From: Curtobacterium sp. 458 | Lineage (GTDB): Bacteria > Actinomycetota > Actinomycetes > Actinomycetales > Microbacteriaceae | Length of the DNA: 64,000 nt | Direction of reading: 5' to 3' | Assembly (NCBI RefSeq): GCF_030406605.1 | Contig: NZ_CP129104.1 | Span: 2,072,799 to 2,136,798 of the forward strand | In this document: positions 3,827 through 43,527 of the stretch, piece after piece | Numbering within the stretch: the stretch's first letter is position 1 | Layout of the letters: each line of letters starts with the position of its first letter | Made by a program: the position numbers and the translations under genes | Notes under the pieces: generated by a model | What the model saw: the letters and a program-made list of their open reading frames with translations, nothing else | The model's database searches: none | Told to the model about the DNA's origin: nothing

Positions 3827-5152
3827 ATGGATCAGGCGATGCGTGCACCCCTGAGCACGCTGGTCCGGTACGTCCTGCTGGGCGTCGGGCTCGCTGCTGC
3901 CCTCGTGCTGCTCACCCTCGTCTTCGGCGTCCGGTCCGCTTCGGCGTCGACCGCCGCCCCGACGTCCGCCGCGTCCACCAGCGACCGGCCGGGTCTGCTC
4001 GGCGGGGTCACGGAAGGCCTCGGATCGACCGTGCAGGGCGTCACCCGCGGCGTCGGTTCGGTCGTCGGCGAGGTGGTCGACCCCGTCCGCACCGCCGTCG
4101 CCCCGAAGCCCCCGGCGCAGCACCCGGCTCCCGGTCCCGCGGCTCCGGCTCCGGCGCCCGCGGCGCAGCCGGTTCCCACTGCCCAGCCGGCGCAGGCCGC
4201 TGCCCGACCGGCAACCGCGGAGCCCGCTCCGGCACCCGCGAAGCCCGCTCCGGCACCGGCCGCGCCCGTCCACAAGCCGGCACCGGCGCCCGCCGCGCAC
4301 GCACCCGCCGAGCCCGCAGCACCGGCTCCCGCACCGACGTCCACGGCGGGCTCCGCGGCCGAGGCGACCAGTGCCTCCCGGCCGCTGACCGGCCCGCTCG
4401 CGACGGCACTGCGCCCCGTCACGGGAGCCGTGCAGGACCTCACCGACGCACGCCCCGTGACCGGGCTCGTGGACGCTCTCGACCGCGTCGTCGCCGGACT
4501 CCCGGTCGTCGGACCGGTCGCCGGCGACGGTGCCCTCGGGACCGTCACGGCACCCGTCACCGGGCTCGTCGACGACACGCTCGGTGGCGTCGGCGGCACG
4601 GTCGGCGACCTCCCCGGCGTGGTCGACGGCACGGTCCCACTCACGCCCGGAGGCGCGCTCCCGCCGCTCGACGGCGCGCAGCCGCCGGTCGCGACCCTCC
4701 CTGGAGGCACGACCCCCGTCACCGGGACCGGCCTGCCCCCGGTGGGCAGCGGCTCCGGAGCCCCCGCGGTCGCGACCACGCCAGCGCCGTCCTCCGTGCC
4801 CCAGGCCGGGTCGGCCGACGCTGCGGCAACGACCACGTCACCGGTCGCGGCGGTTCGGGTCCCCGCGGCCGGTGACGCGTCCCTCGGTGCCGCGCCGACG
4901 ACCTCCGTGGTCGTGGACGGGCGCGCGCTCCTCGTCCCGGAGGGTGGTGCCCCCGTGCACCTGCCGGCCGACGGCCCCGCCGCGACCGGCACCCCCGGTG
5001 GTGCCACGGGTGGCTCGTCGATCACCGCGCCGGTCGGCACGACCGCCGGTTCGGACGCCCAGTTCTCCCTCGCCGCGGGGTCACGCGGTTCCCTCGCCGA
5101 CGACGTGGTCCCCGCGTCCCTCGTCGGCGACCACGACGTCGCCCCTGACTGA
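3827..5152 (+). CDS. Secreted Pro/Ala-rich low-complexity surface protein
   Basis: The ATG at 3827 follows a strong AGGAGGT (3814-3820). The 441-residue product has an N-terminal hydrophobic export segment (YVLLGVGLAAALVLLTLVFG, about residues 12-31) ending near SASA. A helix-breaking region follows with GLGSTVQGVTRGVGSVVGEV, then Pro/Ala repeats (PAPAPAAQPVPTAQPAQ and similar, about 95-190), then alternating PVTGxV/LPVVGPV-type motifs (about 200-290) and a Thr/Gly/Ala tail. No catalytic domain or LPxTG-like anchor is visible. The composition fits a cell-wall-spanning or matrix protein. It lies 91 bp upstream of the repeat protein below, probably co-expressed. The string GTGCCTCCCGGCCG (4371-4384) is a half-copy of the dispersed palindrome family inside the coding sequence. 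Confidence 0.8.
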   Translation: MDQAMRAPLSTLVRYVLLGVGLAAALVLLTLVFGVRSASASTAAPTSAASTSDRPGLLGGVTEGLGSTVQGVTRGVGSVVGEVVDPVRTAVAPKPPAQHPAPGPAAPAPAPAAQPVPTAQPAQAAARPATAEPAPAPAKPAPAPAAPVHKPAPAPAAHAPAEPAAPAPAPTSTAGSAAEATSASRPLTGPLATALRPVTGAVQDLTDARPVTGLVDALDRVVAGLPVVGPVAGDGALGTVTAPVTGLVDDTLGGVGGTVGDLPGVVDGTVPLTPGGALPPLDGAQPPVATLPGGTTPVTGTGLPPVGSGSGAPAVATTPAPSSVPQAGSADAAATTTSPVAAVRVPAAGDASLGAAPTTSVVVDGRALLVPEGGAPVHLPADGPAATGTPGGATGGSSITAPVGTTAGSDAQFSLAAGSRGSLADDVVPASLVGDHDVAPD

Positions 5153-5192
5153 GATCGGTGCGCCTGTCCGCCACGGCAGGCACGCACACACC

Positions 5193-5214
5193 CCCGACCG
5201 TCACCACGGTCGGG
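5193..5214 (+). other. Hairpin between the two surface-protein genes
   Basis: A 9-bp perfect inverted repeat, CCCGACCGT / ACGGTCGGG, with loop CACC. No T-tract follows. It may act as an attenuating or mRNA-stabilising hairpin 29 bp ahead of the next ATG. Confidence 0.5.
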
Positions 5215-5243
5215 AACCGATCTCGATCAGGGAGTGAACGACC

Positions 5244-7238
5244 ATGAACAAGTACGTCTCGAGAGGGCTCTGGTTCGCCCTCTTCGTCGGCGGCCTGACC
5301 CTCGGGGGAGCGGCGGCAGCGAACGCCGCGACGACCTCCGGAGCGGACGGAGCCGTCTCGGGCACACAGGTCGCCCCGTCCGTCGACGCACCGGTGTCCG
5401 TCACCGGCAACGCGCTCGGCGTCCTCGGCGACGCGATTTCGACGGCGACCGGGTCCGGCGCTGCGTCGACCCCGGCACCCGCGGCTCCGGCATCCTCGGC
5501 TCCGGCAGCTCCGGCTCCGGTCACCTCGGGGGCGGACGGCGCCGCCTCGGGGACGCAGGTCGCTCCGGCGGTGAGCCTCCCGGTGACCGTGTCCGGCAAC
5601 GCCGTCGGGGTCGCAGGCGATGCGTCCTCGGCGACCGCTCCGGCTCCGGCACCCTCGGCTCCTGCGCCTGCGCCTGCGCCGACCACGTCGGGCGCGGACG
5701 GCACGGCCTCGGGCACGCAGATCGCCCCGGACGTGGACGTCCCGGTGACCGTGTCCGGCAACGCCGTCGGGGTCGCGGGCGATGCGTCCTCGGCGACCGC
5801 TCCGGCGGCTCCGGCTGCGGACTCGTCCGCTTCGGCCCCGACGACGTCCGGCGCGGACGGCACCGCCTCGGGCACGCAGGTCGCACCGGTCGTGTCCGTG
5901 CCGGTGACGGTTTCGGGCAACGGGATCGGCGTCCTCGGTGACGGTGCGGCCTCCGGCTCGACGACCACGACGCCGGTCGGGACGGGGACGGGCACGGGAG
6001 CCCCGACGCCGACCACGGACGGTTCCGACGGGCTGCTCTCCGGCACGCAGGTCGGTGGCCTCGTGTCGGTGCCCGTGACGATCTCCGGGAACGGGATCGG
6101 GGTCGTCGGTGACGGCACGAGCTCGGGTTCGACGGCTGGTTCGGGTTCGTCGGGTTCGGTCCCGTCGGCCGGTGGGACGACGGATGGTTCGGACGGCATC
6201 GGTTCGGGGACGCAGGTCTCCCCGGTGATCAGCCTGCCGATCAGCGTCGGCGGGAACGGGATCGGGGTCGTCGGGGACGGCACGAGCTCGGGTTCGACGT
6301 CCGGCACGGGTTCGTCGGGTTCGGTCCCGTCGGCCGGTGGGACGACGGATGGTTCGGACGGCATCGGTTCGGGGACGCAGGTCTCCCCGGTGATCAGCCT
6401 GCCGGTCACCATCGGTGACAACGGGATCGGCATCATCGGTGACGGCGCGAGCTCGGGTTCGACGTCCGGCACGGGTTCGACCGGTTCGGTCCCGTCGGCC
6501 GGTGGGACGACGGACGGTTCGGACGGCATCGGTTCGGGGACGCAGGTCTCCCCGGTGATCAGCCTGCCGGTCACCATCGGCGGCAACGGGATCGGCATCA
6601 TCGGTGACGGCGCGAGCTCGGGTTCGACGGCTGGTTCGGGTTCGTCGGGTTCGGTCCCGTCGGCCGGTGGGACGACGGATGGTTCGGACGGCATCGGTTC
6701 GGGGACGCAGGTCTCCCCGGTGATCAGCCTGCCGATCAGCGTCGGCGGGAACGGGATCGGCATCATCGGTGACGGCACCAGCACGATCACGACCCCGGGT
6801 GACGGTACCGACCCCGGGACGGGCACCGACCCCGGGACCGGCACGGACCCTGGTGACGGCACCGACCCCGGGACGGGCACCGACCCCGGGACGGGTACGG
6901 ACCCGGGTGACGGCACCGACCCCGGGACCGGCACGACCCCCGGGACCGGGACCGGGACCGGAACCGGCACGACGCCCGGATCCGGCACCGGGACGACCAC
7001 CGGTTCGGCGCCCGTGACGGCGACCGTCCCGGTGACCGCAGCCGCCGTGACGGCGGCGACCAGCGCCTCCCGGCCGGCGACGGTCGCAGCGGTGACCGCC
7101 GCCGCGGCCACCGCGTCCGGGAGCACCGCGACGGGCCTGGCCTACACGGGCGCGGCGTCGCCGACGCTGCCGCTGACCGCCGCGCTGCTGCTGCTCCTCG
7201 CCGGAGCCGGCGTGCTCACGCTGCGTCGTCGGCACTGA
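5244..7238 (+). CDS. Chaplin-like nine-repeat surface protein with LAYTG sorting signal
   Basis: A 664-residue exported protein. Residues 1-28 form a signal peptide ending ANA. Residues about 29-513 hold nine repeats with core SGTQVxPxVSxPVTVSGNGIGV, preceded by TTSGADG or TTDGSDG and separated by Ser/Ala/Gly/Pro linkers. The cores resemble the chaplin consensus (SGN..QVPVHVPVN.CGN.V.VIG) without the Cys pair. Residues about 516-585 are GTGTDP/GDGTDP repeats, probably a wall spacer. The C-terminus is LAYTG (632-636), a hydrophobic helix and RRRH: the LAxTG signal used by class E sortases. Repeats 5-9 are almost identical at DNA level. It follows the Pro/Ala-rich gene and ends before a strong hairpin. 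The likely role is a surface coat, adhesin or amyloid-like layer; this is inference. Confidence 0.85.
   Translation: MNKYVSRGLWFALFVGGLTLGGAAAANAATTSGADGAVSGTQVAPSVDAPVSVTGNALGVLGDAISTATGSGAASTPAPAAPASSAPAAPAPVTSGADGAASGTQVAPAVSLPVTVSGNAVGVAGDASSATAPAPAPSAPAPAPAPTTSGADGTASGTQIAPDVDVPVTVSGNAVGVAGDASSATAPAAPAADSSASAPTTSGADGTASGTQVAPVVSVPVTVSGNGIGVLGDGAASGSTTTTPVGTGTGTGAPTPTTDGSDGLLSGTQVGGLVSVPVTISGNGIGVVGDGTSSGSTAGSGSSGSVPSAGGTTDGSDGIGSGTQVSPVISLPISVGGNGIGVVGDGTSSGSTSGTGSSGSVPSAGGTTDGSDGIGSGTQVSPVISLPVTIGDNGIGIIGDGASSGSTSGTGSTGSVPSAGGTTDGSDGIGSGTQVSPVISLPVTIGGNGIGIIGDGASSGSTAGSGSSGSVPSAGGTTDGSDGIGSGTQVSPVISLPISVGGNGIGIIGDGTSTITTPGDGTDPGTGTDPGTGTDPGDGTDPGTGTDPGTGTDPGDGTDPGTGTTPGTGTGTGTGTTPGSGTGTTTGSAPVTATVPVTAAAVTAATSASRPATVAAVTAAAATASGSTATGLAYTGAASPTLPLTAALLLLLAGAGVLTLRRRH
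6040..6780 (+). repeat. Near-identical tandem coding repeats (repeats 5-9 of the chaplin-like protein)
   Basis: Units of roughly 130-150 bp repeat nearly unchanged, for example the blocks reading GACGACGGATGGTTCGGACG and CAGGTCTCCCCGGTGATCAG recur around 6178, 6343, 6508 and 6670. Linker codons differ by a few bases (GCTGGTTCG versus TCCGGCACG). Earlier repeats (1-4) are more diverged, so the 3' copies look recently amplified and could vary in number by slippage or recombination. Confidence 0.85.
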
Positions 7239-7427: not shown

Positions 7428-8747
7428 GTGCTCCACGAACTCCTGCGCCTCAAGATCACGGACAGTGACGTCCTCGTCCCGGTGGACGTCATCGCCGGCC
7501 TCCTCGTGCTCTGGGCGCTCGTCGTTCGACCGTGGTCGCTCTCGCGGTTCCTCGTCCGGATCGCCGCCATGGGCGTCGGAGCCGTCGTGGGGCTCGGCCT
7601 CGTGTGGTGGTTCGGCGACGTGCAGGACGCGTTCGGCGTCGCCTTCACGCCGATCACCCGGATGTGGGTGGCCTTCGCGGTCGCCGCCGTCGCGCTCCTC
7701 GTCACGGTCGCGGTGCAGGGCGGATGGGGGCGTCGGGTGATCGCGCTCACGGCGGCGGGAGCGGTCGTCCTCGCGGCCGGGCTCGGCGTCAACGTGGACT
7801 TCGGGTTCTACAAGGACATCCAGCAGGCGCTCGTCACGAATCCCTACCCCTACAAGGACCTGCCGGTGCTCGCGACGGGACCGACGACCCGGCCCGCCCT
7901 CGACCCGTCTGGGTGGCACGCCCCCGCGGGCATGCCGGCGAAGGGCGAGGCGATCAGCGTCCGGATCCCCGCGACGGTGTCGCACTTCCACGCGCGGAAG
8001 GCCGTCGTCTGGTTGCCCCCGGCAGCACGGACAGCGCACCCGCCGACGCTCCCCGTGATCGTCGCGCTCTCCGGGCAGCCGGGCGAGCCGTCCGACCTGT
8101 TCCAGACGGGCGACATGGGGCGCTTCCTCGACCGCTACGCTGCTGCCCACGACGGGCTGGCCCCGATCGTGGTGTCGCCCGACCAGCTCGGCGCGCCGAA
8201 CCGCAACCCGATGTGCGTCGACTCCCGCCGCCTCGGCCGGAGCGAGACCTACGTGATGACCGACACCGTCGACTGGATCCGGAAGCACCTCCCGGTGGCC
8301 GCGGCCCCGTCGGGGTGGGCCGTCGCCGGGTTCTCCGAGGGGGCGACCTGCGCGATGCAGTTCTCCTCCGAGTTCCCCGACGTGTTCGGCTCGGCGCTCG
8401 CCATATCGAGCGAGCCCGCACCGCTGACCGGGAGCGCCGCGAACAGCATCAAGGTGGCGTTCGACGGTTCCGCGGCGAAGTACCGGGCAGCGGCGCCCGC
8501 AGCGCTCATGGCGGCGCACGGGCACTACGTCGACCACCTCACGGTGTTCGGCGTCGGGCAGGACGACGCGCCGTACCGGCGGTCGACCGCGATGCTCGAC
8601 GCCGCCGCGCGCAAGGTGGGCATCACGACCGAGGTCATCGTCTCGCCCGGCTCCGCGCACGACTGGAACACCGTGCGGTACGTCCTCGCGCACGGACTCC
8701 CGACGGTGATCGCCCACCTCGGCCTCCCCGCGAGCGGTGCCCTGTGA
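7428..8747 (+). CDS. Membrane-anchored alpha/beta hydrolase, candidate aminoacyl-PG hydrolase
   Basis: The 439-residue protein has about four N-terminal transmembrane helices (residues 15-130) followed by an extracellular esterase domain. The nucleophile motif GFSEG lies in VAGFSEGATCAMQFS, the region LPVIVALSGQPG resembles the oxyanion strand, and SPGSAHDWNTVR supplies the likely catalytic His. The fold is like Ag85/esterase D hydrolases. Its 4-bp overlap (GTGA) with the MprF-type synthase downstream implies translational coupling. AhyD-type hydrolases that remove amino acids from phosphatidylglycerol are known to sit beside such synthases, so this is the favoured role; a general esterase is the alternative. 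The GTG at 7428 has no clear Shine-Dalgarno. Confidence 0.8.
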   Translation: MLHELLRLKITDSDVLVPVDVIAGLLVLWALVVRPWSLSRFLVRIAAMGVGAVVGLGLVWWFGDVQDAFGVAFTPITRMWVAFAVAAVALLVTVAVQGGWGRRVIALTAAGAVVLAAGLGVNVDFGFYKDIQQALVTNPYPYKDLPVLATGPTTRPALDPSGWHAPAGMPAKGEAISVRIPATVSHFHARKAVVWLPPAARTAHPPTLPVIVALSGQPGEPSDLFQTGDMGRFLDRYAAAHDGLAPIVVSPDQLGAPNRNPMCVDSRRLGRSETYVMTDTVDWIRKHLPVAAAPSGWAVAGFSEGATCAMQFSSEFPDVFGSALAISSEPAPLTGSAANSIKVAFDGSAAKYRAAAPAALMAAHGHYVDHLTVFGVGQDDAPYRRSTAMLDAAARKVGITTEVIVSPGSAHDWNTVRYVLAHGLPTVIAHLGLPASGAL

Positions 8748-11170
8748 GCCCGCAGACCCGAGCGTGGCCGCGGCGCGCGCAACAGACCCTTCGGCGGTAC
8801 CCGGTCACCACGGTGCTCGCCCTGCTCGTCCTCGTCACCTCCGTCGCCGCGGTGGTGCTCCGCGTGCAGCACGGCACCCAGCCCGCGTCGTTCGGCCCGT
8901 TCCGGGTGTTCGCCGCGTCGACCGGCCTGGTCGCGATCCTCGTGACGATCGCCGGCGTGGTCGTGCTGATCGGTGCATCGGAACGGCTGATGGGGCCGTG
9001 GCGGACGATCGTCGCGTTCGTCGTCACCACCGTGGTCGGGACCGGGGTCGGCGCGCTCACCGCCTTCGTCGACACCGACGGCCGTGACGTCGGGCACCTC
9101 CTGCTCGGCCGCGCCACGGCGTTCGACCCGTGGACCGCGATCGTCGGCACAATCGTCACCGCGAGCGCGTTCGCCGGCACGCTCTGGCGGCGTCGCATCC
9201 GGGTGAACGCCCTCGCCGTCGTGGCGGCGCTGCTCCTCTACGCCGGCCACGTGTCGGACCTGTACGCCGTGCTCGCCGCGGCCGCCGGCTGGGTGCTCGG
9301 CGAACTGCTCCGACGGACGCCGAAGCGCACCGGGTGGCTCCGCAGCTCCCACCGGGAGATCCGGGTGCTGCTCGGGACCGCCGTCCTCGTCTCGGCGGTC
9401 GGACCCGTCATCGCGCTCGTCTCGAGGGCCCGCGTCGGACTGCTCGCCCCGCTCGCCGCGGTCGTCGGTGCCGGTCCGGTGAGTCCGGTGCGCGGGTGCC
9501 GCGCGGACGGTGTCGCGGGGGAGTGCCTCCGCGGACTGCTCTCGTTCCGCGCGACCGACCCGTGGACGCTCGTCCTCGCCGTGGCGCCGCTCCTCGTCCT
9601 GCTCGTCGGCGGCCTCGGGCTCTTCCGCGGCAGCCGCTTCGCGGTGTGGCTCGTCGTCGTCGTCGACGTCGTCACCGGGGTGGCCGCCGCCGTCACCTAC
9701 GGACTCGTGCCGGGGCGCGTCACGGCCCTGCACGGCTTCGAGGACCAGTTCGTCGTCGACGTGTCGATCGCCGCGTCGATCGTGGTGCCGCTCGCGACCG
9801 CGGTCGTGCTCGTCCTGCTCCGCCGCTCCTTCACCGTGCTGCCGTCCCGCCGACGGGTCGTCGGCTTCGCGGTGACCGTCGGTGCGTCGGCACTCGTGCT
9901 CGTGACCATCGTGCTGGTCGTGGCCGCGTCCTCGCCGGCCCACGTGGAGGACCCCGTCCGGCTCGCGCTCGCCGCGCTCGGCCCGCTCGCGCCGGTGTCG
10001 TTCTGGGACCGGCTGCCGTCGCTCGACCCGGCACTCCGGCTCGTCGTCGGCCTGAGCGGACCGGTGCTCTGGGTCGTCGTCGCGCTCGCCGCGGTCCGGC
10101 CGACCGGCGCGGTCGAACCCGACACCGACGCGGACGGCTCGCGGGCTGACCGCGAGCGGGCACGCGCACTCCTGCTCGCCGGCGGGGGCGACACGTTCGG
10201 TTGGATGACGACGTGGCTCGGCAACCAGTACTGGTTCGCGGCCGACGGGCGGGCGGGCGTGGCGTTCCGGCGGAACGGCGCGGTCGCGGTGACGGTCGGC
10301 GGTCCGTTCGGGTGGCCCGACGCACGCGAGCGCGCGCTGACGGACTTCGCCCGGTACTGCGACGACAACGGCTGGACCGCTGCGTTCTACGGGATCGAGG
10401 CCGAGGTCGCGGAGCACCTCACGCCGCAGGGCTGGGGCACGCTGCCGGTCGCCGAGGACGCCGACTTCGACCCCCGCACGTGGACCACGAGCGGGAAGAA
10501 GAAGCAGGACGTCCGGACCGCGGTGAACAAAGCCCGCCGCGAGGGCATCACCGCGACCTGGTCGTCCTGGCAGGACCTCCCGACGCCGACCGTCCGGCAG
10601 ATCGAGGCGATCTCGGAGGAGTGGGTCGCCGAGCGGGAACTCCCCGAGATGGGGTTCACCCTCGGCGGCGTCGACGAGATGCGCGACCCCGCCGTCCGTA
10701 CCCTCGTCGCGCAGGACGCCGAGGGCACCGTGCTCGCCGTGACGAGCTGGCTCCCCAGCCACCGGGACGGGCGCGTCGTCGGGTGGACGCTCGACGTGAT
10801 GCGGCGGACCGACCACGCGCCGAACGGCGTCATGGAGTTCCTCGTCGCGAGCGCCGCGGAGCAGATGCGCGACGACGGGGTCGAACGGCTCAGCCTGTCC
10901 GCCGCGCCGCTCGCGCAGGTCTCGGACCCGGAGGCGCCGACGGACGGCGTGCAGAACCTCCTCGAGCTCGTCGGCGGGGTGCTCGAGCCCGTGTACGGGT
11001 TCCGCTCGCTCCTGCGCTTCAAGCAGAAGTTCGGCCCCGAACTGCACCCGCTCGTCCTCGCCTACCCCGACCCCGTCGCGCTGCCGGCCATCGGCATCGC
11101 GGTGGTGCGGGCGTACCTGCCCGACCTGTCGTTCCGGCAGGCGGTCGCCTTCGCGCGGGGGCGCGGCTGA
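8744..11170 (+). CDS. MprF-type phosphatidylglycerol aminoacyltransferase (DUF2156)
   Basis: The 808-residue protein has a multi-helix membrane part (about residues 1-460) and a cytosolic C-terminal DUF2156 domain (about 470-790) with the family landmarks WLGNQYWFAADGRAGVAFR, VAVTVGGPFGWPDA, the KKKQDVRTAVNKARREG block and GFRSLLRFKQKFGPE. Such enzymes move an aminoacyl group (Lys or Ala) from tRNA to phosphatidylglycerol, lowering surface charge and helping resist cationic peptides. The amino acid used here cannot be told from sequence. The start is the GTG overlapping the hydrolase stop by 4 bp. A long palindrome follows the gene. Confidence 0.88.
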   Translation: MSPQTRAWPRRAQQTLRRYPVTTVLALLVLVTSVAAVVLRVQHGTQPASFGPFRVFAASTGLVAILVTIAGVVVLIGASERLMGPWRTIVAFVVTTVVGTGVGALTAFVDTDGRDVGHLLLGRATAFDPWTAIVGTIVTASAFAGTLWRRRIRVNALAVVAALLLYAGHVSDLYAVLAAAAGWVLGELLRRTPKRTGWLRSSHREIRVLLGTAVLVSAVGPVIALVSRARVGLLAPLAAVVGAGPVSPVRGCRADGVAGECLRGLLSFRATDPWTLVLAVAPLLVLLVGGLGLFRGSRFAVWLVVVVDVVTGVAAAVTYGLVPGRVTALHGFEDQFVVDVSIAASIVVPLATAVVLVLLRRSFTVLPSRRRVVGFAVTVGASALVLVTIVLVVAASSPAHVEDPVRLALAALGPLAPVSFWDRLPSLDPALRLVVGLSGPVLWVVVALAAVRPTGAVEPDTDADGSRADRERARALLLAGGGDTFGWMTTWLGNQYWFAADGRAGVAFRRNGAVAVTVGGPFGWPDARERALTDFARYCDDNGWTAAFYGIEAEVAEHLTPQGWGTLPVAEDADFDPRTWTTSGKKKQDVRTAVNKARREGITATWSSWQDLPTPTVRQIEAISEEWVAERELPEMGFTLGGVDEMRDPAVRTLVAQDAEGTVLAVTSWLPSHRDGRVVGWTLDVMRRTDHAPNGVMEFLVASAAEQMRDDGVERLSLSAAPLAQVSDPEAPTDGVQNLLELVGGVLEPVYGFRSLLRFKQKFGPELHPLVLAYPDPVALPAIGIAVVRAYLPDLSFRQAVAFARGRG

Positions 11171-11298: not shown

Positions 11299-11431
11299 AA
11301 GCGCTCCGGGGTCGGTGCAAGTCCGAACCGGTGGTGACAGTCCACGAACTGATGACGGGTGCGAACCCGGCAGAGGTTGACCTGGTGGGATTCCAGGACC
11401 GACGGTGAAAGTCCGGATGGGAGGAAGCGCT
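11299..11431 (+). promoter_or_regulatory. FMN riboswitch (RFN element)
   Basis: The leader shows the conserved RFN core in order: GCGCTCCGGGGTCGGTG, CAAGTCCGAACC, GGTGACAGTCC, CGAACCCGGCAGAG, and ACGGTGAAAGTCCGGATGGG ending in GGAAGCGC, which closes the P1 helix with the 5' GCGCT. RFN elements bind FMN and switch off riboflavin genes. It directly precedes ribE-ribB-ribH, so feedback control of riboflavin synthesis is expected. Confidence 0.95.
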
Positions 11432-11464
11432 GGCGGGCAGGTCGACCGTGTCGACCCGTCCGCC
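11432..11464 (+). promoter_or_regulatory. Candidate riboswitch expression-platform hairpin
   Basis: Immediately 3' of the RFN core, GGCGGGCAGGTCGAC (11432-11446) can pair with GTCGACCCGTCCGCC (11450-11464) around a CGT loop, with one G-U pair and one mismatch. No T-tract follows. It could be a terminator stem, or an anti-terminator if it competes with P1. The ribE start is 50 bp further on. Confidence 0.55.
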
Positions 11465-29376: not shown

Positions 29377-29464
29377 CTTGCTGCTCCCTCCGGTCCGTCG
29401 CCCAACCCTACCGACGACGCCCGACAGACGGACGCCGGTGCCGCCGGCCGGAGCACTGGGGAAG

Positions 29465-29650
29465 GCACGAGGGCCGGCCACCTTGTCGGCGGCCGGCCCT
29501 CTCCCTTGCACGATGGGTGCAGCTCCGGGAAGCACGAGGGCCGGCCGTCCGAAGGCGGCCGGCCCTCTCCCTTGCACGATGGGTGCAGCTCCGGAAAGCA
29601 CGAGGGCCGGCCATCCGAAGACGACCGGCCCTCTCCCTTGCACCAAGAGT
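29465..29650. repeat. Tandem 66-67 bp hairpin repeat, three copies
   Basis: Three consecutive units start at 29465, 29532 and 29598. Each has GCACGAGGGCCGGCC, a short variable centre, GGCCGGCCCTCTCCCTTGCA and, in the first two, CGATGGGTGCAGCTCCGG. Every unit folds into a GC-rich hairpin. The 422-bp stretch 29377-29798 lies between the stop of the winged-helix gene and the start of the MarR operon, both on the minus strand, and holds no gene that I can see. The units may act as serial terminators or protein-binding sites. Confidence 0.9.
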
Positions 29651-41300: not shown

Positions 41301-42791
41301 ATGTCCGCGATCACGCACGCCCCGACGCCCGCCACCGTCCTCGGGGCACTCCGTTCCCCACGCCTGCTCACCCGTGAGGTCCTCGCCGGCGTCGTGACGG
41401 CGCTCGCCCTCATCCCCGAAGCGATCTCCTTCTCGGTCGTCGCGGGTGTCGACCCGGCGGTCGGTCTGTTCTCCAGCGTGGTGATCGCCGTCGTGATCGC
41501 GATCGTCGGCGGCCGACCGGCGATGGTGTCCGCCGCCGCGGGGTCGGTCGCGCTGGTCATCGCTCCGCTCGTCCGCGACCACGGCATCGCCTACCTGGTG
41601 CCCGCGGTCCTCCTCGGCGGCGTCGTCCAGATCGTCCTCGGTCTGCTCGGGGTGGCGCGGCTCATGCGGTTCATCCCGCGGAGCGTGAACGTGGCGTTCG
41701 TGAACGCCCTCGCGATCCTCATCTTCACCGCGCAGCTGCCGAACCTGTTCGGCCACGACGTGCCGTTCGTGGTGTGGCCGCTCACGGCCCTCGGCATCGC
41801 GGTGATCGTCGGCTTCCCGTTCCTGACGAAGGCCGTCCCCGCGCCCCTCGTCGCGGTCGTCGTGATCACCGCGATCACGATCGTGTTCGGCGTCGCGGTG
41901 CCGACCGTCGGCGACGAGGGTGCCCTGCCGACGGCGCTGCCCGGGTTCAACGGCGTCACGGTCCCGGTCACGTTCGAGACGCTGCAGATCATCGCGCCGT
42001 ACGCCGTCGGCATGGCGGTGGTCGGGCTGATCGAGACGCTGCTGACCGCCCAGCTCGTCGACGCGATCACCGAGACCGGGTCGAGCAAGTGGCGGGAGTC
42101 GTGGGGGCAGGGTGTCGCGAACATCGCGTCGGCGTTCTTCGGCGGGACCGGCGGCTGCGCGATGATCGGCCAGACCGTCATCAACGTGAAGACCGCCGGC
42201 GCACGGACCCGGATCTCGACGTTCGTCGCGGGCGTCTCCGTGCTCGTGCTGACCATCGTCCTGCACGACCTCGTGGCGCAGATCCCGATGGCGGCGCTCA
42301 CCGCGGTCATGGTCATGGTCTGCGTCGCGACCTTCGACTGGCACAGCATCCGACCGAACACCCTGCGCCGGATGCCGCTCGGCGAGACCGTCGTCATGGC
42401 GCTCACGGTCGTGGTCGTGGTCGTGACGGACAACCTCGCGACGGGCGTGCTCGTCGGGGTCGTGGCTGCCGCACTGGTCTTCGCCCGCCGAGCCGCCCAC
42501 GTGGTGTCGGTCGTCCGCGAGCCCGTGGACGAGCGCACCGTCCGGTACCGGGTGCGGGGCGCGCTCTTCTTCGCGAGCTCGAACGACCTCGTGACCCGGT
42601 TCTCATACGCCGAGGACCCCGAGCACGTCGTCGTCGACATGACCGACGCGCACGTGTTCGACGCGAGCACCGTGGCCGCGCTCGACGGCGTCGAACAGCG
42701 GTACGCGCAGCACGGCTCGACCGTCCGGGTGGAGAACCTCAACACCGGCTCGGTCGCCATCCACGGGCGTCTGTCCGGCCACCTCGGCTGA
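41301..42791 (+). CDS. SulP family anion transporter
   Basis: 496 residues. The membrane domain has about 12 helices, beginning LTREVLAGVVTALALIPEAI and containing GGRPAMVSAAAGSVALVIAP, VTFETLQIIAPYAVGMAVVG and AFFGGTGGCAMIGQT. The C-terminal STAS domain includes VVVDMTDAHVFDASTVAALD. SulP proteins carry sulfate, bicarbonate or other anions; the substrate cannot be told. The MerR control is unusual for this family. Confidence 0.92.
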   Translation: MSAITHAPTPATVLGALRSPRLLTREVLAGVVTALALIPEAISFSVVAGVDPAVGLFSSVVIAVVIAIVGGRPAMVSAAAGSVALVIAPLVRDHGIAYLVPAVLLGGVVQIVLGLLGVARLMRFIPRSVNVAFVNALAILIFTAQLPNLFGHDVPFVVWPLTALGIAVIVGFPFLTKAVPAPLVAVVVITAITIVFGVAVPTVGDEGALPTALPGFNGVTVPVTFETLQIIAPYAVGMAVVGLIETLLTAQLVDAITETGSSKWRESWGQGVANIASAFFGGTGGCAMIGQTVINVKTAGARTRISTFVAGVSVLVLTIVLHDLVAQIPMAALTAVMVMVCVATFDWHSIRPNTLRRMPLGETVVMALTVVVVVVTDNLATGVLVGVVAAALVFARRAAHVVSVVREPVDERTVRYRVRGALFFASSNDLVTRFSYAEDPEHVVVDMTDAHVFDASTVAALDGVEQRYAQHGSTVRVENLNTGSVAIHGRLSGHLG

Positions 42792-42870: not shown

Positions 42871-43527
42871 ATGCCCGCGACCCGAGTCCACCTCGTCCGT
42901 CACGGCGAGGTGCACAACCCCGGCCGTGTCCTCTACGGTCGGCTCCCGGGCTTCGGACTGAGCGACCTCGGCAAGCAGATGGCGTCCGCGTCGGCAACGG
43001 CGTGGCACGATGCCGGCGTCGACGTCCGGCGCATCGTCGCCTCACCGCTGCAGCGCACGCAGGAGTCCGCGGCGCCCTGGGCGGACGCCTACGGGCTCGA
43101 GGTCGCCCTCGACGAGCGCCTCATCGAGCCGACGAACCGGTACGAGGGGCAGCCCCCGGGGTTCACCAAGCGCTCGATCGGGCGTCCGGCCGAGTGGCCG
43201 TGGATCGCGAACCCGTTCCGCCCGAGCTGGGGCGAGGCCTACGAGTCCATCGCCAACCGCATGCTCGCGGCCGTCGCCACGGCATGGGAGAGCGTCGACG
43301 AGGGGGACGTCGTCCTCGTCAGTCACCAGTTGCCCATCTGGATGGTGCACCGTCGTCTCGCCGGGGAGCACCTGTGGCACGACCCGCGGCAGCGGCGGTG
43401 CGACCTCTCCAGCATCACGACCCTCGAGCGTGTGCCAGCCACGCCGACCGGTCGCTTCGCCGAGGTCGGGTACGCGGACCCTGCCGAACGGCTCCGGGAG
43501 ACCGCGATCGACGAAGGAGCAGTGTGA
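42871..43527 (+). CDS. Histidine phosphatase family protein
   Basis: 218 residues with the catalytic RHG motif in VHLVRHGEVHNPGRVLYGRL, the second site RIVASPLQRTQESA and the late HQLPIW His. It is a phosphoglycerate-mutase-like phosphatase of unknown substrate. It leads the cytochrome c maturation operon, as does Rv0525 in M. tuberculosis as I recall it. A TAGACT box (42858-42863) ends 7 nt before the ATG with GGAGGT lying between them, so the Shine-Dalgarno may not be in the mRNA. Confidence 0.93.
   Translation: MPATRVHLVRHGEVHNPGRVLYGRLPGFGLSDLGKQMASASATAWHDAGVDVRRIVASPLQRTQESAAPWADAYGLEVALDERLIEPTNRYEGQPPGFTKRSIGRPAEWPWIANPFRPSWGEAYESIANRMLAAVATAWESVDEGDVVLVSHQLPIWMVHRRLAGEHLWHDPRQRRCDLSSITTLERVPATPTGRFAEVGYADPAERLRETAIDEGAV

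Follow-up and report, generated by a model that had tools for sequence, protein, structure and literature searches.

Chaplins are textbook functional amyloids of filamentous Streptomyces, and the chaplin domain coats the filaments of these organisms. What, then, does a long chaplin-like repeat protein do in Curtobacterium sp. 458, which belongs to a mostly non-filamentous family (Microbacteriaceae), and how is its production controlled? We address this question for a gene at positions 5244..7238 of a 64,000-nucleotide stretch of contig NZ_CP129104.1 (positions 2,072,799 to 2,136,798 of the forward strand), which as a whole is called the window here. As read from the sequence, the gene product is a chaplin-domain homologue with a sorting signal, the genome encodes a class E sortase, and the gene forms a pair with that of a second exported protein, the two being separated by a folded, covarying leader RNA. 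We propose that the protein acts as a wall-tethered, self-associating hydrophobic coat or adhesin whose translation is coupled to that of its exported partner, a reading that we favour with some reserve.

A nine-unit chaplin homologue without cysteine

A preliminary description of this DNA had noted nine chaplin-like units lacking cysteine (Cys), a GTGTDP spacer and an LAYTG anchor in a protein of 664 residues. All of these are present in the open reading frame (ORF) 5244-7238, which has the following features.

5244..7238, forward strand: chaplin-like repeat protein, 664 aa, ATG start, nine Cys-less units, LAYTG anchor
5244..5333, forward strand: signal peptide MNKYVSRGLWF...ANAAT, well conserved in the alignment of relatives, with a helix at 2-28 in the model and an inferred cleavage site
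5358-5432, 5547-5621, 5709-5783, 5868-5942 and 6039-6113, forward strand: unit cores 1-5
6204-6278, 6369-6443, 6534-6608 and 6699-6773, forward strand: unit cores 6-9 (whole array 5358..6773)
6798..7136, forward strand: spacer of GTGTDP-type repeats plus an Ala/Thr-rich stretch, starting at residue 519, with low model confidence
7137..7235, forward strand: LAYTG sorting signal (residues 632-636), hydrophobic helix and RRRH tail

The nine cores, of the form SGTQ[VI]...P.....N..G..G, start at residues 39, 102, 156, 209, 266, 321, 376, 431 and 486. They are spaced 53-63 residues apart (55 in units 5-9), with a unit length of about 55 residues, and each consists of 24 residues (consensus SGTQV..V..PVTV.GN.IGV.G) followed by a linker, 29-39 residues long, in which G, S, T, A and P abound. 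Tandem Repeats Finder independently reports a 165-bp repeat (4.2 copies, 93% matches, score 1177) and one of 162 bp (2.8 copies), and units 5-9 are close repeats at the DNA level (165 bp, 93%). Not one Cys occurs in the 664 residues.

The chaplin resemblance, which the preliminary description had drawn from the motif, is borne out by profile searches. The full protein matches the Pfam family ChpA-C (PF03777) in nine stretches with 54.3 bits against a cut-off of 21; this is its sole Pfam family at E <= 10, and the search placed the repeat in no other beta-repeat family. A second chaplin profile, made from 55 distinct Cys-bearing domains of 30 loci that are Streptomyces-type by motif, gives the window protein 70 bits. 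The maximum among 2000 controls, in which the protein was permuted in 57-residue blocks, was 8.9 bits, so the score reflects more than chance. A Leifsonia relative scores 81.1 bits, supporting the homology to PF03777; the PV/GN register is conserved among relatives, and in L156, a protein of a different family of the order, units with and without Cys occur together.

The units align to about positions 2-36 of the 45-position chaplin profile and thus represent the first two thirds of the domain; the third GN motif and the second Cys fall in the missing part, and the position of the first Cys is occupied by T, S or G. At the first GN position all nine units have GT, the second GN is kept in eight of nine (DN in one), and the third lies beyond the unit. 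Canonical chaplins carry three GN motifs 12-13 residues apart (PMC13251363) as well as two Cys (PMC13251363, PMC7766987), with ChpE and one ChpB domain described as exceptions to two Cys per domain. Lacking three GN motifs and two Cys, the window protein is, by its sequence, a chaplin-domain homologue yet not a canonical chaplin. The frame is under selection, as the ratio of nonsynonymous to synonymous substitution rates (dN/dS) in seven comparisons with Curtobacterium relatives is 0.22-0.34 for cores and 0.27-0.50 for linkers, with linkers higher in six of the seven. The mean grand average of hydropathy is 0.84 for the cores, 0.61 for the equal span of Streptomyces-type chaplins and -0.27 for the linkers.

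LAXTG is the signal for class E sortases, which anchor the long chaplins of Streptomyces (PMC5148588), and the layout of signal, domains, spacer and LAXTG is also that of the Streptomyces-type proteins compared. At the LAYTG end, the NCBIfam model NF058582 scores 23.8 bits, under its cut-off of 27. Three sortase genes in the own genome are above the Pfam cut-off: one class E (NF033747, 225.3 bits, cut-off 160), one class F (173 bits, cut-off 166) and one that reaches 105.7 bits, under the class F cut-off. A six-frame search of this genome found no short chaplin; its only other PF03777 match (E 0.38, below the cut-off) is antisense to a frame read as ileS. Outside the window, six more proteins of this genome have LAYTG, a helix and a basic tail (L173, L174, L175, L176; three within C1:3362000-3366000), as found with a search pattern that covers only some codons; these are probable sortase substrates.

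The preliminary description had also suggested that a multi-domain version in such a genome would be a new kind of surface polymer or amyloid. That a multi-domain or Cys-less form is singular or new is not supported by the distribution of such genes. A three-unit profile at E <= 1e-6 finds one in 58 of 199 sampled family genomes (the own genome included), in 30 of 85 genera and in all four listed genomes of the own genus. Cys-bearing proteins with 3-8 domains are present in other families, and ChpE is an already known Cys-less chaplin of Streptomyces (PMC5618241, PMC3079736). PF03777 itself matches 115 of the 199 genomes at E <= 1, a threshold at which 4 of 14 control genomes also match, and 44 pass the cut-off. 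A class-wide scan at E <= 1e-3 matched 96 of 394 genomes, which is a lower bound because the own genome fails that threshold. A scan of genome contigs gave 76 distinct loci, mostly titled Curtobacterium, then Leifsonia, Herbiconiux, Frigoribacterium and others; the nearest relative is a C. luteum locus (best segment 74%), and L097 and L102-L104 match in the spacer only. Seven and eight units are commonest (24 frames each) among 99 frames of L009-L104 with unit matches, some of which are interrupted by contig ends, N runs or frame breaks. One frame (L085), ended by a contig end, runs for 1407 residues with 19 unit matches and LPGLPG repeats. Cys occurs in 2 of 612 distinct family units, collected with the window units as seed.

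The presence of a Cys-free, shortened, many-unit chaplin form in a large part of the family suggests that, beyond aerial growth, the domain also acts as a tethered coat or adhesin; its core of about 24 residues, which has no disulfide, lends itself to testing. A review describes chaplin-like genes in the non-sporulating Arthrobacter chlorophenolicus and suggests attachment as maybe an earlier role (PMC4255298). Among open-licence papers on chaplins and arrest peptides, we found none that deals, by its title or the opening of its abstract, with multi-unit Cys-less Microbacteriaceae chaplins or with the leader RNA described below, and a term search of the main text of PMC10987492 returned no chaplin, sortase, Curtobacterium, Leifsonia or Microbacteria.

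The leader RNA and the gene before it

That the chaplin-like gene stands alone was considered and rejected: comparison of stop codons and tails revealed a conserved protein encoded upstream. The elements concerned are these.

3827..5152, forward strand: exported Ala/Pro-rich protein, 441 aa, with an N-terminal signal or transmembrane segment, ending DHDVAPD-stop
5144..5246, forward strand: leader RNA, a three-way junction by minimum free energy (MFE)
5144-5159 with 5216-5231, forward strand: outer leader stem P1, with 5149 and 5226 unpaired
5160-5185, forward strand: leader P2
5193-5214, forward strand: leader P3

A stretch of 103 nt that runs from the upstream ORF's end to the start codon is predicted to form a three-way junction at -53.4 kcal/mol; for the span 5146-5252 (-49 kcal/mol, z -4.66), none of 200 shuffles was as stable. 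P1 contains the upstream stop codon TGA (5150-5152) and extends to the first bases of a Shine-Dalgarno-like AGGGAG (5229-5234). Readthrough into the chaplin-like gene was rejected for the window because the 94 nt from TGA to ATG are not a multiple of three. Across loci, the leader measures 89 to 144 nt.

This arrangement recurs in relatives. We compared 71 leaders, from the window and L029-L101 without L093, L097 and L100, and the pattern CC.G[AG][CT]TGA lies within 150 nt upstream in every one; as a chance rate, the form CC.GA[CT]TGA stands 40-150 nt upstream of 2 of 870 window ATGs. MFE folding gives the outer stem in 70 of the 71 leaders versus 269 of 710 shuffles that kept the first 13 nt, and exactly two hairpins inside it in 67 versus 91. 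Twenty family loci drawn by PF03777 score, regardless of RNA, behave alike: the upstream ORF ends PD in all 20, and 19 form the outer stem. Among 10 loci from more distant families with Cys-bearing chaplins, nine are without the pattern within 160 nt, a count that does not include L159.

Pairing is preserved through sequence change. In A7, a score-selected set of 33 leaders fitted to the model, 23 of 30 pairs change on both sides, with a covariation score of 0.449 versus 0.160 (standard deviation 0.010) for shuffles and 0.077 for the best slid register. This set comprises the 33 of 35 sources that reached E <= 0.003 (19 of Curtobacterium type and 14 others, mainly Leifsonia). It excludes L063 and L068, which scored below, and L041, whose match above the threshold was on the minus strand. 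Of the 33 leaders, 19 form the pair closest to the Shine-Dalgarno site and four the pair at the unpaired pyrimidine. Within Curtobacterium alone the signal is modest: seven of 30 pairs change on both sides, the score is 0.115 versus 0.082, and the additional types of pair do not exceed those of shuffles (32 of 500 reach them). An ungapped 7-nt partner test, weakly discriminating, matched 16 of 39 own versus 116 of 1370 crossed pairs.

Covariance models extend the association to further genomes. The best matches outside Curtobacterium of model R1, built from the window and 40 loci titled Curtobacterium, are all in Leifsonia (L082, 8.9e-9; L081, 3.7e-7; L070, 2e-6; L067, 3.7e-5). Model R2 gives 23 hits in the 199 family genomes, one per genome, 21 of them before chaplin-like genes and two (G040, G049) before proteins whose signal peptide is similar and whose units are degenerate. 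The filters of this RNA scan are stricter than those of the protein-profile scan (23 versus 58 of 199 genomes), so that lack of an RNA hit is not absence. In 248 genomes of the order, R2 gives 10 hits including the own; two of the nine others are from the same family and seven from three other families. Seven of these nine precede clear chaplin-like proteins, the protein of L200 is ended by a contig end after 42 residues, and that of L203 is degenerate. The preceding frame ends PD (21) or PG (2) at the 23 family hits, counts that are not independent because the models include the last bases of the upstream ORF; at the nine further hits it ends PD (6), PG (2) or PA (1), with UAG instead of UGA in two. 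In L183, L190 and L203, the leader and an upstream PD/PA-stop frame stand before proteins with decayed or changed units. Within the window, a second R1 match at 42881-42970 (24.5 bits, E 0.011; whole genome E 0.07), at the start of a gene read as histidine phosphatase, was judged to be chance; another lies at 41795-41885 (18.7 bits, E 0.27). Minus-strand matches over leaders were set aside as merely the complement of the stems. By these comparisons, the leader is a conserved and covarying RNA between the same two kinds of gene, and it matches no family of Rfam 15 at gathering score (best 17.7 and 17.4 bits versus gathering scores of 43 and 70).

The upstream protein has a variable middle and 16 conserved last residues. 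In the loci that we examined, a comparable ORF lies before the chaplin-like gene, and in 70 of 71 its frame runs without interruption for 120 codons or more ahead of the stop. All 17 loci that were read have an N-terminal hydrophobic signal, with an A-x-A-like site in most and a GLLG-V..V stretch in many. Counted back from the stop, the tails of these 70 loci have D at -5 (all 70), P at -13 (68), D at -16 (59), P at -2 (all 70) and D at -1 (69, with G in the other). The counts for the last two residues are partly imposed and not independent, because CC.G[AG][CT]TGA requires P and then D or G. Independent evidence comes from the presence of the pattern in 71 of 71, from the other tail positions and from the 20-locus set, for which the pattern was freer at the last residue; there PD is kept in all 20 and D at -5 in only 13. 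The upstream protein of the window falls in no Pfam or NCBIfam family, and none of three such proteins searched reaches a cut-off of either. Being fast-changing, the protein was missed by filtered BLAST.

A conserved operon was considered and rejected on comparison of the wider neighbourhood. Among BLAST neighbours, Lrp, GNAT, riboflavin, esterase and LPG synthase genes are common to the Curtobacterium-titled loci and L056 and not to the other genera of L029-L101; 20 other-genus loci have no neighbour common to the whole set, although some groups among them, for instance the Leifsonia loci, have neighbours in common within the group (3 to 6 loci). In the window, 8708-11170 encodes a membrane protein whose C-terminal domain is of the phosphatidylglycerol lysyltransferase type (PF09924, 271 bits), adjoining an esterase at 7428-8747; each was matched in 26 of the 73 loci L029-L101. 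An FMN riboswitch (RF00050, 91.8 bits) lies at 11299-11432, ahead of genes read as riboflavin synthesis, and a 66-bp tandem repeat (2.8 copies, 90% matches) at 29459-29643.

A proposed coat, probable coupling and the alternatives

We infer that self-association, a coat and coupling follow from these features. The conserved signal peptide would export the nine-unit protein, and the class E sortase of the genome would attach it to the wall at LAYTG. Hydrophobic cores on flexible Gly/Ser/Thr/Ala/Pro linkers could then associate between neighbouring chains, onto hydrophobic surfaces or at the air-water interface, and the outcome would be a hydrophobic coat or adhesive layer. A tethered, chaplin-like coat or adhesin that works alone appears to be the likeliest reading. 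The covarying leader, with a stop codon in its outer stem, raises the question of how the exported partner and the surface polymer are kept in step. A ribosome that ends the upstream gene at the stop in the 5' arm would keep the outer stem open; without a terminating ribosome, the three-way junction would close next to or over the start region. This geometry fits translational coupling of the two proteins, which we regard as likely. The conserved RNA and the second exported-protein gene before such genes suggest shared control of a surface coat.

Several results weigh against this proposal. No single window unit passes the Pfam cut-off (best 20.1 versus 21 in the six-frame genome search), two canonical chaplin features, the three GN motifs and the two Cys, are absent, and dN/dS is lower in linkers than in cores in one of the seven comparisons (L036). 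The outer stem is not formed by MFE in L052 (of the 71), L025 (of the 20) and L205; in other genera it frequently stops a few bases short of the Shine-Dalgarno site and leaves it uncovered; and R1, at E <= 1, locates the leader exactly or to within a few nt in 20 of 48 other loci, missing 28. AlphaFold models are poor (mean pLDDT 47.4 for three units with 71 rows, 55.1 for the full protein with 39 rows), Foldseek with the low-confidence model gave no PDB match at E <= 0.001 (17 matches, best E 3.8), and a sequence search of solved structures reached a best E of only 0.38; none of these structural results is used as evidence.

Two other roles for the protein can be envisaged. It could be a wall-bound scaffold on which secreted short chaplins polymerise, in the manner of the long chaplins of Streptomyces, which have the same layout and sorting signal; genomes outside the order hold short and multi-domain forms together (L145 with L159 in one genome; L152). 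The units here are without the third GN and Cys, and the own genome yields no short chaplin, its one further match being antisense, so we consider a scaffold quite unlikely. Alternatively, the Val/Gly repeats may resemble chaplins by convergence and form an adhesin stalk or spacer, with units that bind a ligand or merely extend the chain. The simple composition and the low-confidence structure agree with this idea, but the profile score far above shuffles, the conserved PV/GN register and the mixed protein L156 count against it, and we give it equally little credence.

For the leader, the alternatives concern what happens at the upstream stop. The ...PD-stop might slow or stall the terminating ribosome when export is slow, hold the stem open and so raise output of the chaplin-like protein, following the logic of SecM. 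Control of SecM-secA involves a stem that masks the Shine-Dalgarno site and follows an exported protein whose C-terminus carries an arrest sequence (PMC7897499). Consistent with such a nascent-chain sensor are the N-terminal export signal, the variable middle with its conserved last 16 residues and the stop codon within the 5' arm of a fold whose other end is the Shine-Dalgarno region. However, the tail contains no known arrest motif, its D at -5 is invariant in one set of loci and not in the other, 441 residues exceed the 80-200 of known search criteria, and the gene does not lie upstream of sec or yidC; conservation of the tail may reflect a role outside the cell, and plain coupling explains the RNA equally well. 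We therefore hold a sensor to be doubtful. Slightly more doubtful still is the fuller proposal of an undescribed control module of the order, in which the ...PD of the exported protein would act on its own terminating ribosome, at a stop that lies inside a three-way-junction RNA, likewise undescribed. The tethered coat would then be made only as the partner is exported or in response to that export, and the controlled protein would be a surface polymer of many Cys-free units, with no need of a short chaplin. Alternatively, the leader could act in RNA processing or stability, or terminate the upstream gene weakly, without translational coupling. Its very stable fold and an outer stem that does not always reach the Shine-Dalgarno bases would suit such a function; a stop in the 5' arm and a start site adjoining the 3' arm across genera and families would not, and no U-run follows in the window. 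This explanation we consider unlikely.

Comparison with known systems

Like the long chaplins ChpA-C of Streptomyces, the window protein combines a signal peptide, hydrophobic units, a spacer and an LAXTG signal for class E sortase with a profile match above the cut-off. It differs in having nine units where ChpA-C have two, each covering the first two thirds of the domain, with no Cys and no third GN; its genome has no detected short chaplin, and an exported-protein gene and a leader RNA precede it. With ChpE, compared by published description only, it shares a Cys-less chaplin domain, and ChpE forms cross-beta fibrils (PMC3079736); ChpE, in contrast, is short, single-domain and unanchored. 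Eight Cys-bearing multi-domain chaplins of other actinobacterial families (L144, L146-L149, L151, L159, L167) similarly have three to eight PF03777-type units per secreted protein and an LPXTG/LAXTG-like end or a C-terminal hydrophobic tail. Unlike the window protein, they have Cys in most units, and seven of the eight are without the PD-stop pattern within 160 nt of the start, a count that does not include L159.

On the side of control, the closest parallels are the monitoring substrates SecM, VemP and MifM, for which search criteria are a length of 80-200 aa and a position upstream of sec or yidC (PMC7897499). The upstream ORF departs from both: it is longer, at 441 aa, and precedes a surface-protein gene instead of sec or yidC, and arrest in its case is putative. 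It shares with them an export signal, conserved C-terminal residues at the end of the ORF and a downstream start region that adjoins an mRNA structure, and its geometry, with a stop in the upstream gene and a stem near the downstream start region, is like that of SecM-secA.

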